Part shown: in pieces, positions 948 to 7,852 of the stretch
Layout: every line of letters starts with the position of its first letter
Numbering within the stretch: the stretch's first letter is position 1
NCBI GenBank assembly: GCA_029855985.1
Contig: JAGSHR010000266.1
Coordinates: forward strand, 1 to 8,872
DNA: 8,872 bases
Source of the DNA: Candidatus Njordarchaeota archaeon
Lineage (GTDB): Archaea; Thermoproteota; JANJXX01; Panguiarchaeales; Panguiarchaeaceae
Direction of reading: 5' to 3'
The notes under the pieces: generated by a model
What the model was told of the DNA's origin: nothing
The model's database searches: none
Seen by the model: only the letters and a program-made list of their open reading frames with translations
Translations under genes and position numbers: made by a program

Positions 948-1361
948 TCACTCTTTTTGATATCTATTTGTGTTTTTCGAGAGATAATTTATTATTCCTT
1001 TCTTTAGTACTCTATAGGATAGTAAAGCGCATTTTAGACGCACGGGTCCAAGTGGTATACCAATGGCATCTAACAGTTCTTTTTCATTCATTTCAGTTAG
1101 GTCTTCGATGCTTCGACCTATGATCATTTCTGTTAGAATGGCTGCTGATGCTTGGCTTATGATGCATCCTTTGCCCTCGAATTTTGCCTCTTTGACTTTT
1201 CCTTGGTTATCAAGTTTGATGTATATTTGTACAACGTCACCGCATGATATGTTTTCATCTTTTGCGATAATGTCGGCGTTTTCTATTTTACCTTTTGTTG
1301 TTGCGTACTTATAGTAATCCAGTAATATTCGTGTTTTCTCGATTAAGTCTTCTTCACCCAT
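948..1361 (-). CDS. sufU: IscU/SufU-type Fe-S cluster assembly protein
   Basis: This 137-residue protein belongs to the IscU/SufU (NifU N-domain) fold. The three ligand cysteines are visible: C40 in SCGD with D42 beside it, C66 in GKGCIIS, and C111 in RLKCALL. The residue before the last cysteine is Lys (K110), as in SufU, where IscU has His. The spacing C66-C111 is 45 residues, however, close to IscU, so the roughly 17-20 residue insertion that marks Gram-positive SufU is absent. In the family, IscU builds clusters on these ligands, while SufU is a zinc protein that takes persulfide sulfur from SufS. Its position as the last gene of the suf operon, 14 bp after sufS, suggests it receives sulfur from SufS. 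The ATG start is preceded by a G-rich Shine-Dalgarno run (AGGGGGA). It could equally be labelled an IscU-like scaffold. Confidence 0.88.
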   Translation of the reverse strand: MGEEDLIEKTRILLDYYKYATTKGKIENADIIAKDENISCGDVVQIYIKLDNQGKVKEAKFEGKGCIISQASAAILTEMIIGRSIEDLTEMNEKELLDAIGIPLGPVRLKCALLSYRVLKKGIINYLSKNTNRYQKE

Positions 1362-1375
1362 TTTATTCCCCCTAA

Positions 1376-2599
1376 TTATAACACTTTTCTAATTGCTTTT
1401 AATGTGTCAACTAGTACATCTACCTCTTGTATCGTGTTGTATAGGTAAAAGCTCACACGCGTTGTCGCGGTTAAGCCAAGGTATCTCATTAATGGTTGAG
1501 CGCAGTGATGACCGGCTCGAACAGCGATCCCCCCTAATTGATCTAGAAACATTGACACATCGTGCGGGTGAACGTCATCGAAAGTAAATGATATTACTCC
1601 CGTTCTATCCTTTAAATCTCGGGGACCGATTATTTCTATGAAGTCAAGTTCGCTTAATCGCTCTAGGGCATACTTTGTTAGTTTTTCTTCGTGCTTGAAT
1701 ATGTTTTGTATACCAATTTTGTTAATGTATTCTATTGCCGCACTCCACCCTATTCCCCCAATTATGTTGGGTGTTCCGGCTTCAAATTTCCACGGGATGT
1801 CATTCCAAGTTGAATCATCCAATTTTACCTCTCTAATCATGTCTCCACCATATAGGAAGGGTTCCATTGATTCCAGTAATTCCTCTTTACCGTAAAGGGC
1901 GCCGATCCCGGTGGGTCCTAACATTTTGTGACCCGAGAAGGCGTAGAAATCAGCGTTGAGTTCGCGTACGTCCACCTTCATTCTGGGAACAGATTGGGCG
2001 CCATCTATAACTAAAATGGCTCCTCTTTCGTGTGCTACTTTACCTATCTCTTTAACTGGATTTATAACACCTAAAACGTTTGACACATGCGTTACCGAAA
2101 CGATTTTTGTTTTATCTGTGATAACCTTATCCAACTCGCTAAGATCCAGTCTGTAATCTTCTGTTAGCTTTATGTATTTTAGTTTGGCTCCTTTCTTTTT
2201 CGCTAATTGTTGCCATGGTACGAGGTTTGCGTGATGTTCCATTATTGTTATAACTATTTCGTCTCCTTGTCTAATGTTGTTCATTCCCCAAGAGTACATT
2301 ACCAAGTTTAGTGCTTCTGTCGCGTTTTTAACGAAAACTATTTCCCTCCAAGTCTTCGCGTTTACTAGTTCGGCGACTTTTCTATGAGCGTCTTCGTATT
2401 TCTCTGTTGCTTCTTCACCCAAGGTGTGTATGGATCTATGTATGTTTGCGTTATAGTTTAGGTATGCGTCCTTTATGGCCTCTACAACCTGTATCGGTTT
2501 TTGAGTTGTTGCTGCGTTATCTAGATATATTAGTTGTTTTCCGTGGATTTTTCTCTTGAGAATTGGGAAGTCCTCTCTAATCTTGTTTACATCGATCAA
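1376..2599 (-). CDS. sufS: SufS cysteine desulfurase (PLP-dependent)
   Basis: This is a full-length class II cysteine desulfurase of 407 residues. It converts cysteine to alanine and carries the sulfur as a persulfide for Fe-S cluster assembly in the cytoplasm. Visible residues are the PLP-binding Lys225 in SGHKMLGP, the EHH motif with His123 stacking on PLP, Asp199 in VIDGAQ binding the pyridine nitrogen, the persulfide Cys366 in RAGHHCAQP, and Arg381 near the C-terminus for substrate carboxylate binding. The start is TTG. It is supported by a GGTGA Shine-Dalgarno site (minus strand, 2607-2611) with 7 nt spacing and by the lack of any ATG nearby in frame. It follows sufC by 59 bp and precedes sufU by 14 bp. 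A TATA-like run (CTTTTTATAGG, minus strand, about 2621-2632) lies upstream and may be a weak internal promoter. Confidence 0.95.
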   Translation of the reverse strand: MIDVNKIREDFPILKRKIHGKQLIYLDNAATTQKPIQVVEAIKDAYLNYNANIHRSIHTLGEEATEKYEDAHRKVAELVNAKTWREIVFVKNATEALNLVMYSWGMNNIRQGDEIVITIMEHHANLVPWQQLAKKKGAKLKYIKLTEDYRLDLSELDKVITDKTKIVSVTHVSNVLGVINPVKEIGKVAHERGAILVIDGAQSVPRMKVDVRELNADFYAFSGHKMLGPTGIGALYGKEELLESMEPFLYGGDMIREVKLDDSTWNDIPWKFEAGTPNIIGGIGWSAAIEYINKIGIQNIFKHEEKLTKYALERLSELDFIEIIGPRDLKDRTGVISFTFDDVHPHDVSMFLDQLGGIAVRAGHHCAQPLMRYLGLTATTRVSFYLYNTIQEVDVLVDTLKAIRKVL

Positions 2600-2658: not shown

Positions 2659-3420
2659 CTATTCTGCAGGTGTTCTTTTGGCTAGCCAGGTATAACCCTT
2701 TTTCTCCAATGTTTGAGCCAACTCGTGTCCACCACTTTTAACTATTTTTCCGTCAATCATCACGTGCACGTAATCTGGTGTTATGTAGTCAAGAATCCTC
2801 TTGTAGTGAGTTATTATTAGCAGTCCAACTTGGCTCGCTATCTCATTTACGGTGTTTGCAACTGCCCTTATGGAGTCAATATCTAACCCAGAATCAACCT
2901 CATCAAGTATAACCATTTTTGGTTTTAGGAGGAGCATTTGCACTATCTCAAACCTCTTTTTTTCTCCACCAGAAAAACCGTCGTTGAGATACCGGTACAT
3001 GAACTGGGAATCTAATCCAAGTTTTTGCAGGGAGGCTTTGAATTCGTTGATGAACATGGGATAGCTCACAATATTTTCTCCTCTTGCCTTTCTGATATTA
3101 TTAACCGCTGTTCTTAAGAAATCTAACGTTTTGACTCCTGGTATAGCAAGGGGGTACTGGAATGCTAGGAATAATCCTAGTTTTGCTCTTTCTTCTGGCT
3201 CAAGATCTAGTATACTTTTACCATTGAACAGAATGTCTCCTTTGGTTACTTTATAATTTGGGTGACCCATTATCACGTGTGTTAATGTGCTTTTTCCGCT
3301 TCCATTTGGACCCATTATGGCGTGGATTTCACCGGTTTTGATCTTTAAATTTATGCCTTTTAAGATTTCTCTTCCTTCAACTTCGGCGTGAAGATTTTTT
3401 ATTTCCAGGATGTTATTCAT
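2659..3420 (-). CDS. sufC: SufC Fe-S assembly ATPase
   Basis: SufC is the soluble ABC-type ATPase that binds SufB and SufD to form SufBC2D and powers cluster assembly. It has no membrane partner. The 253-residue sequence shows, in order, the Walker A motif GPNGSGKST (37-45), the Q-loop Gln88 in AFQYP, the signature FSGGEKKR (149-156), Walker B ILDEVDSGLD (171-180) with Asp173 and Glu174, and the switch His205. The DEVDSGLD wording is typical of SufC rather than of transporter ATPases. The ATG start has a GGTGA Shine-Dalgarno site (minus strand, 3426-3430) 5 nt upstream. It lies 44 bp after sufD in the same operon. Confidence 0.97.
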   Translation of the reverse strand: MNNILEIKNLHAEVEGREILKGINLKIKTGEIHAIMGPNGSGKSTLTHVIMGHPNYKVTKGDILFNGKSILDLEPEERAKLGLFLAFQYPLAIPGVKTLDFLRTAVNNIRKARGENIVSYPMFINEFKASLQKLGLDSQFMYRYLNDGFSGGEKKRFEIVQMLLLKPKMVILDEVDSGLDIDSIRAVANTVNEIASQVGLLIITHYKRILDYITPDYVHVMIDGKIVKSGGHELAQTLEKKGYTWLAKRTPAE

Positions 3421-3464: not shown

Positions 3465-4751
3465 CTATAAACGCAAGGAGGATTCCCATTTCTCTGTTAA
3501 CTTGGATAAGAGAGCTAATTTCACCTTATCAGATGGAATTTTCTCGACAGCCGGTTGGAGAGCACCAAAAACTATTAGTCTTTTCGCTTCGTTATCACTT
3601 AAACCTCTCGTTCTCAAGTAGTACACCTGTTCTTCGTCTATTGGGCCAACGGAAGCTGAGTGCGTTGCTCTAACATCGTTAGTTTTAATTTCTAACCCAG
3701 GTATGTCAAAGGCTGAGGCTTCTTTACTTAATAAAATTATGTGAGATTCTAGCAGGGCGTCAGACTTATACGCTTCGTTTCCAATATCAATCAATCCGTT
3801 GTAAACGAGCCTAGCAGAATCCTTTAATGCACCCCTATTTAAAATTCTTCCCTGCGTACCTTGCGAAATGTGTTTAAGTTTTGAGTTGAGGAAGTACTTT
3901 TCACTGTTTGAACCAAAAACAATTTCAATGTGGTTAACAGATGAATATTCACCACCAAGAATATTTGTTATCTCTGAATAATTATAGCTGCCTCCAAGCC
4001 AAGCGTAGGTTGATTCTATGTTTGATTGCCTGCTTGCCTGTGTCTTCCTTATGTTTAAAGTGTTAACTTTTGTGCTAACATCGTGAATGTATGCGTTTTT
4101 TAAAGTTGATCCTTCGCCTACAGCTACTTGGTTATTGTTCACTATCCTTATGTGATTATAGAGGTTTACCTCTCTGATTTCCTCTATTAGTTTTGCATGT
4201 GAGTTATCGCCGATAATTGTAACATTTAACTCGGAGATCTGGAGGTCTCCCTGCGTGTAGTATCGAAGTATCCTTATTGGAAACTTAATCGAAACATCTT
4301 TTGGTATATGGATGTATATTCCCCTATTGAAGGTTAATAGAGAGTATAACTCGATTAGACTGGGGCCACTCTCAATTGACTTGTAAACAATGTTCATAAT
4401 TTTTTTACCGTTCTTTTCGTCAACATCTGAAATGTTTTTCACTACCACGTTGTTGTTTTTTAACTCTCTGTTTGGATCGTATATTTCGTGAATCACTCCG
4501 TTTACAACAATGATGTTTATGGCATTGTCTAAATCTGGATTAAAGTCCACTTTTATAGTATCTGTTTTGGCTTTATATCTTGTGTCCCTAAACCAATCCC
4601 TCAAAATCTTGTTTTCATCAAAATGCCTATCCTTCCTAGGTCTAACCTGATTTATCATAATATCTGCTTTTCTCCTTATGCCCTCAACCCAAGTAATTTG
4701 ATCGCCATTTTTTTCCTTGTTTTTATTAATCTCTAGTGACCTCTCTAACAT
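3465..4751 (-). CDS. sufD: SufD, SufB/SufD-family scaffold subunit
   Basis: This 428-residue protein is the SufD partner of SufB in the SufBC2D complex. The N-terminal third is weakly conserved and mostly helical. The central part is the repetitive beta-strand core of the family, and the end carries the family hallmark THSASVGPIDEEQVYYLRTRGL. His364 in that motif corresponds to the conserved SufD histidine at the SufB interface. No cysteine occurs anywhere in the protein, which fits a subunit that does not carry sulfur itself and separates it from SufB. It starts 13 bp after the sufB stop, and that gap is itself a strong Shine-Dalgarno sequence (GGGGGGAGAG), so the two are translated from one message. 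The SufD label rather than a second SufB rests on the shorter length, lack of cysteine and operon position. Confidence 0.92.
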   Translation of the reverse strand: MLERSLEINKNKEKNGDQITWVEGIRRKADIMINQVRPRKDRHFDENKILRDWFRDTRYKAKTDTIKVDFNPDLDNAINIIVVNGVIHEIYDPNRELKNNNVVVKNISDVDEKNGKKIMNIVYKSIESGPSLIELYSLLTFNRGIYIHIPKDVSIKFPIRILRYYTQGDLQISELNVTIIGDNSHAKLIEEIREVNLYNHIRIVNNNQVAVGEGSTLKNAYIHDVSTKVNTLNIRKTQASRQSNIESTYAWLGGSYNYSEITNILGGEYSSVNHIEIVFGSNSEKYFLNSKLKHISQGTQGRILNRGALKDSARLVYNGLIDIGNEAYKSDALLESHIILLSKEASAFDIPGLEIKTNDVRATHSASVGPIDEEQVYYLRTRGLSDNEAKRLIVFGALQPAVEKIPSDKVKLALLSKLTEKWESSLRL

Positions 4752-4764
4752 GATCTCTCCCCCC

Positions 4765-6165
4765 TTAACCCACTGCCCCTTCCATTTCCAATTCTAACAA
4801 CTTGTATAGCTCTATTGCAAATTGGGGCGGTAATTCCTTGACAAATGGTTCGACGAAACCCATAACAATCATGTTAACAGCTTCTTGTTCATTGAGACCC
4901 CTCGATCTCAAATAGTACAATTGTTCCTCCCCAATTTTCCCAACAGTCGCCTCGTGAGACACCGTTGCATTTTCGTTTTGGATTTCAAGTGTTGGAAATG
5001 TATCTGATCGCGATTTTTTATCGAGTATCAACGCGTCACATCTTATACTTAACTTTGCGTTATCCGCTTTCTTAGATACAACAAAGAGTCCTCTAAACGT
5101 GTTTTGGCCTCCTCCAGTACTAATAGATTTCGATACCACGCTCGATGAGGTATTCGGTGCCAAGTGGAAAACTTTTGCACCAGCATCGATTTGTTGCCCC
5201 GATCCAGAATAAGCGAGGGAGATAACCTTAGCTTTCGCTCCTTTACCAGCTAATATTATCCCAGGGTACTTCATTGTAACTTTACTTCCAAAGTTTCCGT
5301 CAATCCATTCTATGGTGGCATTTTCCTTTGCAAGCGCCCTCTTCGTAACCAAGTTATATACGTTTTTGGACCAATTTTGAATGGTCGTGTATCGAACCTT
5401 GGCGCCTTTCTCAGCTATAATTTCCACTACAGCTGCATGAAGCGATGAAGTCGAATAAAGAGGTGCAGTACACCCCTCGATATAGTGGACGGTGCTCCCC
5501 TTCTCTGCTATTATCAATGTTCTCTCGAATTGTCCTACGTTAGCAGCGTTTATTCTAAAATAAGCGTAAAGAGGAACTTTCACTTGAACTCCTTCGGGTA
5601 CATATACAAAACTCCCGCCACTCCAAAAAGCAGTGTTTAACGCAGCAAACTTGTTATCTTCAGGCGGTACAACTGTACCGAAGTACTTGCGAACAATCTC
5701 AGGATACTCTTTTAATCCCGTATCCATGTCTAAGAAAATTACGCCTTCTTCCTCTAAGTCTTTTTTAATGTTGTGGTATACAACTTCGCTCTCATATTGT
5801 GCACCTACACCTGCTAAAAATTTTTGTTCGGCCTCTGGTAAACCGAGTTTCTCAAAGGTTCTCTTAATGTACTCTGGGATTTCATCCCAGCTATTGGATT
5901 TTTTGTCGGTTGGTTTTATGTAATAAATGATCTCATCAAAGTTTATTCCTGACAAATCAGCGCCCCAAGTTGGCATTGGTTTTTTGAGAAAAGCTCTAAA
6001 ACCTCTTAACCTCATTTCAAGCATCCATTTTGGTTCCCCTTTCATTTTGGAGATTTCCTTAATTAGTTTTTCCGATAGTCCCTTTGGGGCCTTGTAGACA
6101 TAATTTTCGGGATCTTTAAAATCGTATTTTGTTAGGTCTATTTCTGGGATTTCTAGTTTTGACAT
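4765..6165 (-). CDS. sufB: SufB Fe-S cluster scaffold protein
   Basis: SufB is the scaffold on which the Suf pathway builds the cluster, receiving sulfur from SufS/SufU. The 466-residue sequence is full length. The N-terminal part contains the SufB-type run SGGSFVYVPEGVQV (182-195). Cys232 in EGCTAP matches the cysteine proposed to accept sulfur in E. coli SufB (Cys254). His404-Glu405 in SHEATVGKIGEEQLYYLRSRGL match the conserved His-Glu at the SufB-SufD interface. The position equivalent to E. coli Cys405 is not cysteine here (DKKSRSDTFP); Gram-positive SufB also lacks it. Only one other cysteine (Cys376) is present. The ATG start has a GGGTG Shine-Dalgarno site (minus strand, 6173-6177) spaced 7 nt. 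It is the first gene of the five-gene operon, directly under the palindrome-controlled promoter. Confidence 0.97.
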   Translation of the reverse strand: MSKLEIPEIDLTKYDFKDPENYVYKAPKGLSEKLIKEISKMKGEPKWMLEMRLRGFRAFLKKPMPTWGADLSGINFDEIIYYIKPTDKKSNSWDEIPEYIKRTFEKLGLPEAEQKFLAGVGAQYESEVVYHNIKKDLEEEGVIFLDMDTGLKEYPEIVRKYFGTVVPPEDNKFAALNTAFWSGGSFVYVPEGVQVKVPLYAYFRINAANVGQFERTLIIAEKGSTVHYIEGCTAPLYSTSSLHAAVVEIIAEKGAKVRYTTIQNWSKNVYNLVTKRALAKENATIEWIDGNFGSKVTMKYPGIILAGKGAKAKVISLAYSGSGQQIDAGAKVFHLAPNTSSSVVSKSISTGGGQNTFRGLFVVSKKADNAKLSIRCDALILDKKSRSDTFPTLEIQNENATVSHEATVGKIGEEQLYYLRSRGLNEQEAVNMIVMGFVEPFVKELPPQFAIELYKLLELEMEGAVG

Positions 6166-6191
6166 GTTGGTGCACCCATTAACTAATATTC

Positions 6192-6224
6192 ATAACACTG
6201 TTATTCTTCTTATAACATTGTTAT
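6192..6224. promoter_or_regulatory. Twin palindromic operator at the suf promoter
   Basis: Two copies of the 13-bp palindrome ATAACA-N-TGTTAT lie at 6192-6204 (centre C) and 6212-6224 (centre T). The second extends to a 15-bp perfect palindrome (6211-6225). Their centres are 20 bp apart, about two helical turns, so a regulator would bind both on the same face of the DNA. The right copy overlaps the TATA box at 6222-6229. The left copy covers the predicted transcription start. This arrangement fits repression by a dimeric winged-helix-type factor, possibly responding to Fe-S, iron or redox status. The factor is not encoded in the window and its family is unknown. Confidence 0.6.
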
Positions 6225-6229
6225 ATATA
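6222..6229 (-). promoter_or_regulatory. TATA box of the suf operon
   Basis: TATATATA at 6222-6229 is followed on the leftward strand by AAC and preceded by an A/T-rich run. With the usual archaeal spacing, transcription would begin near 6200, giving a leader of about 35 nt before the sufB ATG. That leader carries the GGGTG Shine-Dalgarno site. The box overlaps the first three bases of one operator palindrome. Confidence 0.6.
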
Positions 6230-6337
6230 GAATAAATAAAAATATAGACACAACAAACCAGAACGAGATAGACGCTCAACAAAAACCAAATAAGTGGGTA
6301 ATCACAGACAATATAAAAGTTAAGAAATATGAAAAGA

Positions 6338-6973
6338 TTAGACCTCAAGATCCTCTACTTCGACTTCCTCGTTTAAATCGATATCGACCTCGATTTCCTT
6401 TACGCTTTCTTCTTCGCCTTCCTCGAACATTCTGCTGCCAAAGATGTTAAAGAATAATCCTGGTATCAAACCGACTGCAAAGCCTATAAGGGCTACTTCT
6501 ATTGCGTTTCCTAAGTATACTATGTTACTAGGGTTAAGCGCGTAACCTATAATTGGAGTGACGATCGTGGCGATAACAGATGAAAGAAGGTATTCTTTGG
6601 AGTTTCTTGACATTAAACCAATGAAAATAGCTGCACCAATAAATGGGAAGATCAGGGAGAAGAAAAATCTCGCTGGATCACCTTTGTTGAATCCAAAGGC
6701 GAGGACTTCCGATAAATGAGCTCCTAAGAAACTCTCAATTATTCCGCCAATTTGACCGTATATCACAATAAATCCTGCTAGGATTTTCATGTAGTCAGCT
6801 GTCACACTTACATTAGTGTAGTCTGTTAGGTTGATGGCATAGCCGTAGCTTGACGCGATGAGATTAGCGTTATTTGCGATTTCATCAACGATAATTAGGA
6901 ATATTACAAAGGATACTAAGACTCCTGTTAATATTTCCATTATGAGACTTTTTACTTTTAAATCAAATTCCAT
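6338..6973 (-). CDS. Uncharacterised polytopic membrane protein with acidic C-terminal tail
   Basis: I do not recognise this 211-residue protein. It has four or five hydrophobic segments: about 10-29, 63-85 (Gly/Ile rich, possibly re-entrant), 103-121, 128-147 and 156-179. The loop after the first segment (30-62) contains two N-glycosylation sequons, NLT at 48 and NVS at 54. Together with the lysines at positions 6 and 8, this suggests that the loop faces outside and the N-terminus is cytoplasmic. The last 28 residues (184-211) are almost all Glu, Asp and hydrophobic residues, perhaps an interaction tail. The ATG start has a GGTG Shine-Dalgarno site (minus strand, 6981-6984) with 7 nt spacing. 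It is transcribed toward suf but is separated from sufB by 172 bp holding the suf promoter, so it is probably a separate unit. A T-rich run on its own strand (6312-6337) may end its transcript. Confidence 0.7.
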   Translation of the reverse strand: MEFDLKVKSLIMEILTGVLVSFVIFLIIVDEIANNANLIASSYGYAINLTDYTNVSVTADYMKILAGFIVIYGQIGGIIESFLGAHLSEVLAFGFNKGDPARFFFSLIFPFIGAAIFIGLMSRNSKEYLLSSVIATIVTPIIGYALNPSNIVYLGNAIEVALIGFAVGLIPGLFFNIFGSRMFEEGEEESVKEIEVDIDLNEEVEVEDLEV

Positions 6974-7294
6974 TAAACAACACCAAAAGCTAAGTCTATC
7001 AATTTTTCTAAAACTGTTACTTAAAGTATCTTTTCATGCTTACATAAATGTGTATACTTTTATAATGTATAAAAGTTTAAGCAAAAACACCAACTGAAAG
7101 GGATTATTTAGCGTTAAGACATTAAACTTTAACAACAATAAGAAATGCGCAAAAAACCAATGCGGCACATGTGTTAAATGGGATACCTTAAAATACCAAA
7201 AAGATAAATAAATTATGAAAAATCTTCAAAGATATTATACCTAACACTCCAACAACAATTGAACTTAACAATCTGTTAGAAAAGGCGCATAACA
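6974..7294. other. 321-bp intergenic region between divergent genes
   Basis: No gene is supported here; the longest conventional open frame on the plus strand is about 10 codons (ATG at 7144). The region holds the leader of the membrane-protein gene, the palindromic divergent promoter at 7056-7076 and a stretch of A-rich DNA. It also holds a weak TATA-like element (GATATTATAC, 7231-7240) close to the GTPase gene, and an inverted repeat TAACA-ATC-TGTTA at 7266-7278. If the plus-strand TATA at 7068 is used, the GTPase message would have a leader near 200 nt, long for an archaeon. The nearer element is therefore the likelier GTPase promoter. Confidence 0.5.
7056..7076. promoter_or_regulatory. 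21-bp palindrome with back-to-back TATA boxes
   Basis: ACTTTTATA (7056-7064) and TATAAAAGT (7068-7076) are perfect inverted arms of 9 bp around ATG. Each strand therefore reads TATAAAAGT, a near-ideal archaeal TATA box. The leftward box predicts a transcript start near 7034 and a leader of about 60 nt for the membrane-protein gene. The rightward box predicts a start near 7098. The perfect symmetry may reflect a divergent promoter, a dimeric regulator site, or both. Confidence 0.5.
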
Positions 7295-7852
7295 ATGGTA
7301 TTCATTGACAAAGACGGAAATATAAGAATCAAAGTAGTGATATATGGTCCTGCGCGCAGCGGCAAAACCACCCTAATAAAAAGAATAGTCGAACTTGGAA
7401 AAGAATTCTGGAGAGCACACGTTAGAAGCATTGAGGATATCGAGGGAAACACGTTATTCTTCGATTTCGCACCCTTCCAATACAAGAATAGACCATTAGC
7501 ATTAGACATGTACACTGTCCCAGGAAAAAGAATCCACCTGTACCAGCGTGAAACATTGTTGAAAGGAGCAGATGTCATAATATTTGTTGCAGATTACCAA
7601 GAAGATAGACTCGACGATAACCTGGCAAGTCTTGAAGAACTAGAAAGAATAGTGAACTCTAAGATACCCGTTATCATAGCTCTAAACAAATATGATCTCG
7701 TTTACAGGTTCCCTAGAGAGAAATTCATCCCCAAGATACCTAAAAACCTGAATGTAAAAGAGATTCTAAACACATCCGCTAAGCTAGATTACAATGTGGA
7801 CAAACTTTTCAAGTATGTGATCGAGACTGCGCTATCCAATTTTGCCCCATAA
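7295..7852 (+). CDS. MglA-like small Ras-family GTPase
   Basis: This 185-residue protein is a small G-protein. The motifs are G1 GPARSGKTT (18-26), a switch I region ending TLFFDFAP with Thr53, G3 as TVPG (74-77) instead of the Ras DxxG, G4 NKYD (131-134) and G5 TSA (160-162). TVPG, TLFFDF and the following LLKGADVIIFVAD stretch are hallmarks of the MglA group, known in bacteria for polarity and motility control and widespread in archaea with unknown roles. Two residues that matter for GTP hydrolysis in bacterial MglA differ: the Gln after TVPG (MglA Gln82) is Lys78, and the intrinsic arginine (MglA Arg53) is Asn52. No lipid-attachment cysteine or transmembrane segment is visible, so it is probably cytoplasmic. 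No roadblock-type MglB partner lies beside it. The ATG has no clear Shine-Dalgarno site. The G1 motif lies early (residue 18), which supports this start. Confidence 0.9.
   Translation: MVFIDKDGNIRIKVVIYGPARSGKTTLIKRIVELGKEFWRAHVRSIEDIEGNTLFFDFAPFQYKNRPLALDMYTVPGKRIHLYQRETLLKGADVIIFVADYQEDRLDDNLASLEELERIVNSKIPVIIALNKYDLVYRFPREKFIPKIPKNLNVKEILNTSAKLDYNVDKLFKYVIETALSNFAP

Follow-up and report, generated by a model that had tools for sequence, protein, structure and literature searches.

Twin palindromes in the suf promoter of a Njordarchaeota archaeon, a conserved archaeal element at Fe-S and sulfur genes, and its candidate regulator

The window, i.e., the whole stretch of 8,872 nucleotides analyzed here, contains five suf genes on the minus strand. 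The first is sufB (4765..6165; PF01458 and PF19295), followed by sufD (3465..4751; PF01458), the ABC ATPase gene sufC (2659..3420; PF00005 and neighbours), the cysteine desulfurase gene sufS (1376..2599; PF00266) and a gene for a SufU/NifU-N scaffold-like protein (948..1361; PF01592). Since the intergenic gaps measure just 13 to 59 bp and the strand is the same throughout, sufBDCSU reads as a single operon. The sufB promoter region spans 6166-6337 (172 bp), and the next open reading frame beyond it (6338-6973, minus strand) encodes an unassigned protein of 211 aa, for which the databases hold just two relatives. The window also encodes a small Asgard-like GTPase (7295-7852) with a 62% match named Njordarchaeia. 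At the thresholds used, this GTPase is matched in 102 of 227 Asgard genomes versus none of 30 other genomes.

Two perfect palindromes are located in the sufB promoter region, the sufB-proximal ATAACACTGTTAT (6192..6204) and the sufB-distal ATAACATTGTTAT (6212..6224), neither of which has an assigned strand. They differ only at the central base and their centres lie 20 bp apart, which confirms the description in the earlier note. Palindrome 2 adjoins and shares bases with a predicted TATA-like box (CTATATATAA, 6221..6230, minus strand), and the centre of palindrome 1 lies about 27 bp downstream of this box and about 33 nt ahead of the sufB ATG (6165). The pair would thus cover the TATA box with one copy and the surroundings of the transcription start with the other, in agreement with the positions claimed earlier, both landmarks being predicted from the sequence.

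A single palindrome of this kind is unremarkable, as the window contains five perfect 6-N1-6 palindromes versus a mean of 3.2 in shuffled sequences. The pair is a different matter. No two palindromes with the same arms fell within 60 bp of each other in 1,000 shuffles of the window or in 20,000 dinucleotide shuffles of 6166-6337, and in the latter set ATAACNNNGTTAT appeared once in 17 shuffles and twice in none, so that the earlier judgement that chance is very unlikely holds for the pair. Perfect matches to ATAACANTGTTAT are confined to these two sites in the whole window; with one or two mismatches allowed, two further places are found (7289-7301 and 1378-1390). The copy at 7289-7301 (ATAACAATGGTAT, one mismatch) overlaps the GTPase start codon and is probably a chance occurrence.

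The sufB promoters of other archaea were compared for the same element. Among the 44 genomes of the Caldarchaeum group (including the bin G002), SufB was found at an E-value of 1e-100 or better in 20, and 19 of these 20 have a perfect ATAAC-N3-GTTAT at sufB, starting 8 to 29 nt ahead of the position aligned with SufB residue 1. As background, 82.7 kb of these same loci contain one site. The window's own 13-mers recur in several of these promoters (L169, L173-L176, L180, and L183). The one exception (locus L182 of G257, with a SufB of 47% identity) carries ATAACGGAGTTAT ahead of sufC, which heads a sufCB operon. In an additional genome (G237), a site precedes a SufB gene with a long open frame. 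At this locus (L226) and at L111 and L112, the SufB frames are 740-845 aa long with an interrupted match, suggestive of inteins.

The element extends beyond this group. A phylum-wide sample of 398 genomes gave 12 new loci, nine with an N3 site, two with an N4 site and one with none. Forty more sufB promoters of the phylum, those examined among 65 sufB rows (G539 to G297), comprise 29 with N3, three with N4 (L280, L297, and L299) and eight with neither. In all three sets of promoters, an N3 core was counted when perfect and within 112 bp at sufB. We read many of the genomes in the phylum sample as ammonia oxidizers, judging by SufB similarity and promoter sequences. All five Marsarchaeota sufB loci have the variant ATGAC-N4-GTCAT. 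The predicted operator consensus is ATRAC-N3/4-GTYAT. No site was found at sufB in 69 bacterial loci, 16 Asgard promoters and two other archaeal loci. An Asgard origin of the element was considered and rejected, since none of the 16 Asgard sufB promoters has a site. The arms keep their letters across lineages and the centres vary (the arms being fixed by the selection of perfect sites), and the flanks of non-redundant sites hold little information (0.13-0.37 bits per base). The upstream regions of relatives, both in the Caldarchaeum group and in the wider phylum, thus keep the core in several lineages, and the lack of conservation that the earlier note named as grounds for refutation did not appear. 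Its motif, ATAACA-N-TGTTAT, has to be redrawn in part: the palindrome is conserved elsewhere, but the single-base centre is a local detail of this organism's copies and the centre of the core is free over three or four bases.

Two further features of sufB promoters were seen. Many of the loci L263-L284 belong to one clade with similar sufB promoters; these have a second element in common, near TTAGCTNNAGCTATTTAGCTNNGCCTA and 30-50 bp upstream of the TATA-like box. In the Asgard genome G001, TTAACGATAGTAAA lies upstream of sufB (L100) and TTAACGTAGGTAAA upstream of a gene for HTH-Cys, a small helix-turn-helix protein described below (L335); these are perhaps a diverged N4 form.

Genome-wide, the excess of sites is confined to those Caldarchaeum-group genomes that have the window-type SufB. 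These 20 genomes (G002, G003, and G235-G252) contain the pattern 80 times and the reversed pattern 23 times, versus 78 and 92 for the remaining 24. We collected 69 distinct sites with their flanks, a partly hand-picked set in which sites were chosen for recurrence or apparent relatedness and automatically supplied loci were added. From 53 of these 69 a gene of the searched classes reads away, and 16 have none. The 53 sites belong to SufB (20), SufC (8), an HTH-ferritin fusion and/or a binding protein (18), the HTH-riboflavin kinase RbkR (4), a sulfurtransferase (2) and HTH-Cys (1). The HTH-ferritin genes (L096:671-1456 and L084:679-1410, with the family in L134-L163) encode a C-terminus with weak Pfam matches to Rubrerythrin/Ferritin_2 (E-values of 0.002-0.02; 1.7e-5 in L247). 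The fusion is possibly an iron-sensing regulator, and its promoters often have related palindromes such as TTTACAGTGTAAA. The palindromes at RbkR may link flavin and Fe-S control.

Over all lineages, the target classes comprise sufC, rhodanese sulfurtransferase, ferredoxin, nitrite/sulfite reductase, PF12974 binding protein, FTR1 permease, DsrE-like and ThiF-rhodanese genes. One operator is common to suf and other Fe-S or sulfur genes within each of eight genomes (G238, G239, and the following six). G494, G507, and G582 have sites at sufB, sufC, the PF12974 binding protein and nitrite/sulfite reductase; G446 has them at sufB, in the gap that separates sufC from HTH-Cys, at a distance of 119 bp from the FTR1 iron permease gene and where a DsrE-like gene starts; G564 and G624 have them at sufB, sufC, HTH-Cys, rhodanese and a PLP-dependent enzyme. 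Sites at sufB and rhodanese are found in G532. In the ammonia-oxidizer-like genomes, the recurrent second target is a 100-aa ferredoxin with a site at 11 to 61 bp in seven genomes (L407, L409, L410, L412, L417, L418, and L426), confirmed as a 4Fe-4S ferredoxin for L407. Genome-wide, the pattern is no commoner than its reverse in most of the 26 genomes counted, and in the ammonia-oxidizer-like ones it is mostly the rarer of the two, so that chance sites exist there and the case for these organisms rests on the sufB and ferredoxin promoters. Intragenic sites also occur, as seen at L408, L419, L428, L429, and L430 in the subset of listed sites that was inspected. The possibility left in the earlier note that such palindromes are scattered at random through coding DNA is thus countered by the excess of 80 over 23 and by the 53 of 69 sites at relevant genes, the latter in a partly picked set, but it keeps some force for the ammonia-oxidizer-like genomes without a genome-wide excess. 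The element is real and linked with Fe-S, sulfur and iron genes, of which we are nearly certain. The view that it is a site, here a predicted one, for an archaeal regulator of Fe-S biogenesis gains support from both the conservation at sufB and the target classes.

A candidate for this regulator surfaced in searches with the HTH-ferritin fusion, which returned a smaller HTH protein, here called HTH-Cys. This protein of about 120-150 aa combines an XRE-like HTH with additional helices and has a Cx2[H/C]...Cx2C motif in its C-terminal part. In an alignment of 46 HTH-Cys proteins, the three cysteines are invariant and the histidine is present in at least 90%; it is replaced by cysteine in G564 and G624. 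Profile matches were found in all 80 genomes searched (out of 98 first listed) at an E-value of 0.001, being weak or partial in Sulfolobus-like genomes. The ammonia-oxidizer-like genomes each have one strong match and nothing else of that HTH family. In G244, a 0.9 Mb bin, the profile finds the HTH-ferritin gene only, though sufB of this genome has a site. HTH-Cys is also present in at least six of the eight genomes without an N3 or N4 site at sufB (G370, G279, G330, G348, G543, and G598). The HTH-Cys protein of G446 has an identical counterpart under the name 'Thermoprotei archaeon'. When three HTH-Cys proteins were scanned against Pfam and NCBIfam, the matches were HTH_3, HTH_ParB and similar domains. 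An AlphaFold model has confident helices and a weak motif region (mean pLDDT of 86, with 68 and 48 for the last blocks). A fold search with this model gave no matches at an E-value of 0.001 or better, and a profile search of solved structures gave HTH-sized top matches only, none of them good. As HTH-Cys has no other recognized domain, the Cys/His motif would be its natural sensor; alternatively, the motif may hold a structural metal, since the ThiR-like genes that adjoin HTH-Cys carry the same Cx2H...Cx2C.

The promoters of the HTH-Cys genes themselves contain the element more often than expected. A perfect ATRAC-N3/4-GTYAT is found at the own promoter in four of 51 genomes (G242, G446, G564, and G624), versus a mean of 0.05 and a maximum of 2 in 400 shuffles; with at most one mismatch, the count is 12 of 51 versus a mean of 1.7 and a maximum of 6. 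In G446, HTH-Cys and sufC are divergent with the perfect palindrome ATAACTTAAGTTAT in between. No site, even with one mismatch, was found at the other 39 promoters, including most ammonia-oxidizer-like ones and all three of Marsarchaeota, and autoregulation of HTH-Cys is therefore not general. All four perfect sites share their spacing with sufB of the same genome. Among the eight one-mismatch sites the spacing agrees in five (G257 compared at sufC), the other three (G238, G239, and G240) having N4 at HTH-Cys versus N3 at sufB. The predicted recognition helix varies along with the half-site. Lineages whose sites have ATAAC arms read S-N-Y at this helix. ATGAC half-sites are found in Marsarchaeota and, alongside ATAAC, in G564 and G624, and the helix of all of these reads S-K-Y or S-R-Y. 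An exception is formed by G461 and G532, with an S-Y-Y helix and ATAAC sites. This apparent co-variation involves few independent lineages and is a lead rather than statistical proof.

HTH-Cys is quite probably the reader of the element, judging from these sequence comparisons. The operator and its regulon could also be real with another protein as regulator, such as the HTH-ferritin fusion, RbkR, a ThiR-like HTH-ThiN protein or one that we did not recognize. HTH-ferritin and the adjoining gene for the PF12974 binding protein share a site in eight Caldarchaeum-group genomes (18 sites at either or both), the HTH of the fusion is related to that of HTH-Cys, an RbkR-like gene (HTH-CTP-dependent riboflavin kinase) has a site at its start in G242-G245 (L233, L235, L238, and L240), and ThiR-like genes adjoin HTH-Cys. 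However, HTH-ferritin was matched (E-value of 5e-17 or better) in 32 of the 44 group genomes and in neither G241 nor G250, both of which have the sufB site, and it was dropped as the main candidate for this reason. In the ammonia-oxidizer-like genomes, moreover, the HTH-Cys profile, an indirect measure, detects HTH-Cys alone and no HTH-ferritin or ThiR-like gene. We consider a different regulator unlikely, although RbkR, which was looked at within these loci only, stays a candidate.

Two readings without such a regulator are far less probable. The palindrome could function as a hairpin of the leader RNA, with a 5-bp stem and a loop of 3-4 nt, or be part of the core promoter itself. Its location is consistent with the latter: in N3 promoters with a TATA-like box scoring 7 or more of 8, the site centre lies 10.5-21.5 bp downstream of the box, a distance from a biased search that looked only about 20 bp upstream of the site. 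Against this reading, the site in Marsarchaeota and in the promoters of the G251/G461 type (L251 and L253), judged by eye, is positioned upstream of the box or over it. A stem would permit any compensatory pair, but the arms keep their letters, with the reservation that perfect sites were selected. Most promoters are without a site, and the co-occurrence at Fe-S and sulfur genes is left unexplained, so that we regard this reading as very improbable. It is more improbable still that the window pair arose by coincidence or local duplication, independently of the element conserved elsewhere in archaea. In favour of this reading, the comparisons cover relatives outside the window's own genus and family only, and the window's GTPase is Asgard-like while the 16 Asgard sufB promoters are devoid of sites. 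Against this stand the two perfect copies, which no shuffle reproduced and which share both gene and place in the promoter with the element of other archaea. Moreover, among the genomes searched the SufB of the window is closest to that of G446 (71%), and the N4 form is present in the sufB promoter of that genome.

From the observed conservation of the sites, their promoter position, the common target classes and the partial co-variation of site and HTH-Cys, we infer that the twin palindromes are two operators of a dimeric regulator, most likely HTH-Cys, that controls Fe-S assembly together with sulfur and iron genes in many archaea (probability of about 70%). HTH-Cys presumably occurs in the window's organism as well. 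A dimer bound around the TATA box and transcription start would keep the transcription machinery from assembling, hindering TBP, TFB or RNA polymerase whether the site is upstream of, over or downstream of the box. Repression by one or two dimers is favoured, since a bound protein would be an obstacle at either position. The two window sites, being 20 bp or about two helical turns apart, could accommodate two dimers bound to the same side of the double helix. With the Cys/His motif as the gauge of Fe-S or metal status, suf would be switched off once clusters suffice. Sensing of Fe-S by the motif is about evenly balanced in our view, if anything slightly doubtful. More tentatively still, HTH-Cys may be a general regulator of Fe-S and sulfur homeostasis in Thermoproteota, including ammonia-oxidizing archaea, that senses through its C-terminal Cys/His motif, represses sufB and partner genes and extends to the deep lineage represented by the window; it would have arisen from the ThiR-like HTH family as an independent counterpart of IscR, its specificity shifted by one helix residue and one base.

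To our knowledge, little is known about the regulation of Fe-S cluster assembly in archaea. In open-access PMC, which excludes subscription papers, we recognized no earlier account of this motif, nor any of a Thermoproteota regulator for Fe-S, and a copper-limitation motif differs in sequence from the present element (PMC7785015). For the phylum, ammonia oxidizers included, our analysis offers a single operator, a group of target genes and a candidate protein. Half-site, spacing and recognition helix changing in parallel would make a natural case of regulator-operator co-evolution.

Several known systems can be compared. SufR is a regulator of the suf/isc type in cyanobacteria. RisR of Myxococcus is likewise reported to regulate suf or isc genes; both are bacterial, and the 69 bacterial sufB loci are without such a site. 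SurR of Thermococcales binds GTT-N3-AAC. It is described as an archaeal regulator of redox and sulfur metabolism (PMC10746257). SurR thus resembles the present system in being archaeal and in having paired half-sites spaced by 3 bp, but the window and its relatives have AAC-N3-GTT with ATAAC arms. ThiR is an archaeal thiamine regulator that combines an HTH with a ThiN domain. The N-terminal part of ThiR aligns with almost all of the HTH-Cys profile and shares the Cx2H...Cx2C motif. HTH-Cys differs in standing alone (none of the three scanned proteins matched ThiN), and ammonia-oxidizer-like genomes lack a ThiR-like match. IscR is the bacterial Fe-S regulator of the Rrf2 family, in which three cysteines and one histidine bind a [2Fe-2S] cluster. 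HTH-Cys has an XRE-like HTH instead, no Rrf2 domain being found in the same three scans, and both ligand spacing and DNA site differ. The likeness would lie in a negative feedback on suf exerted by an unrelated protein, with three cysteines and one histidine as possible cluster ligands.
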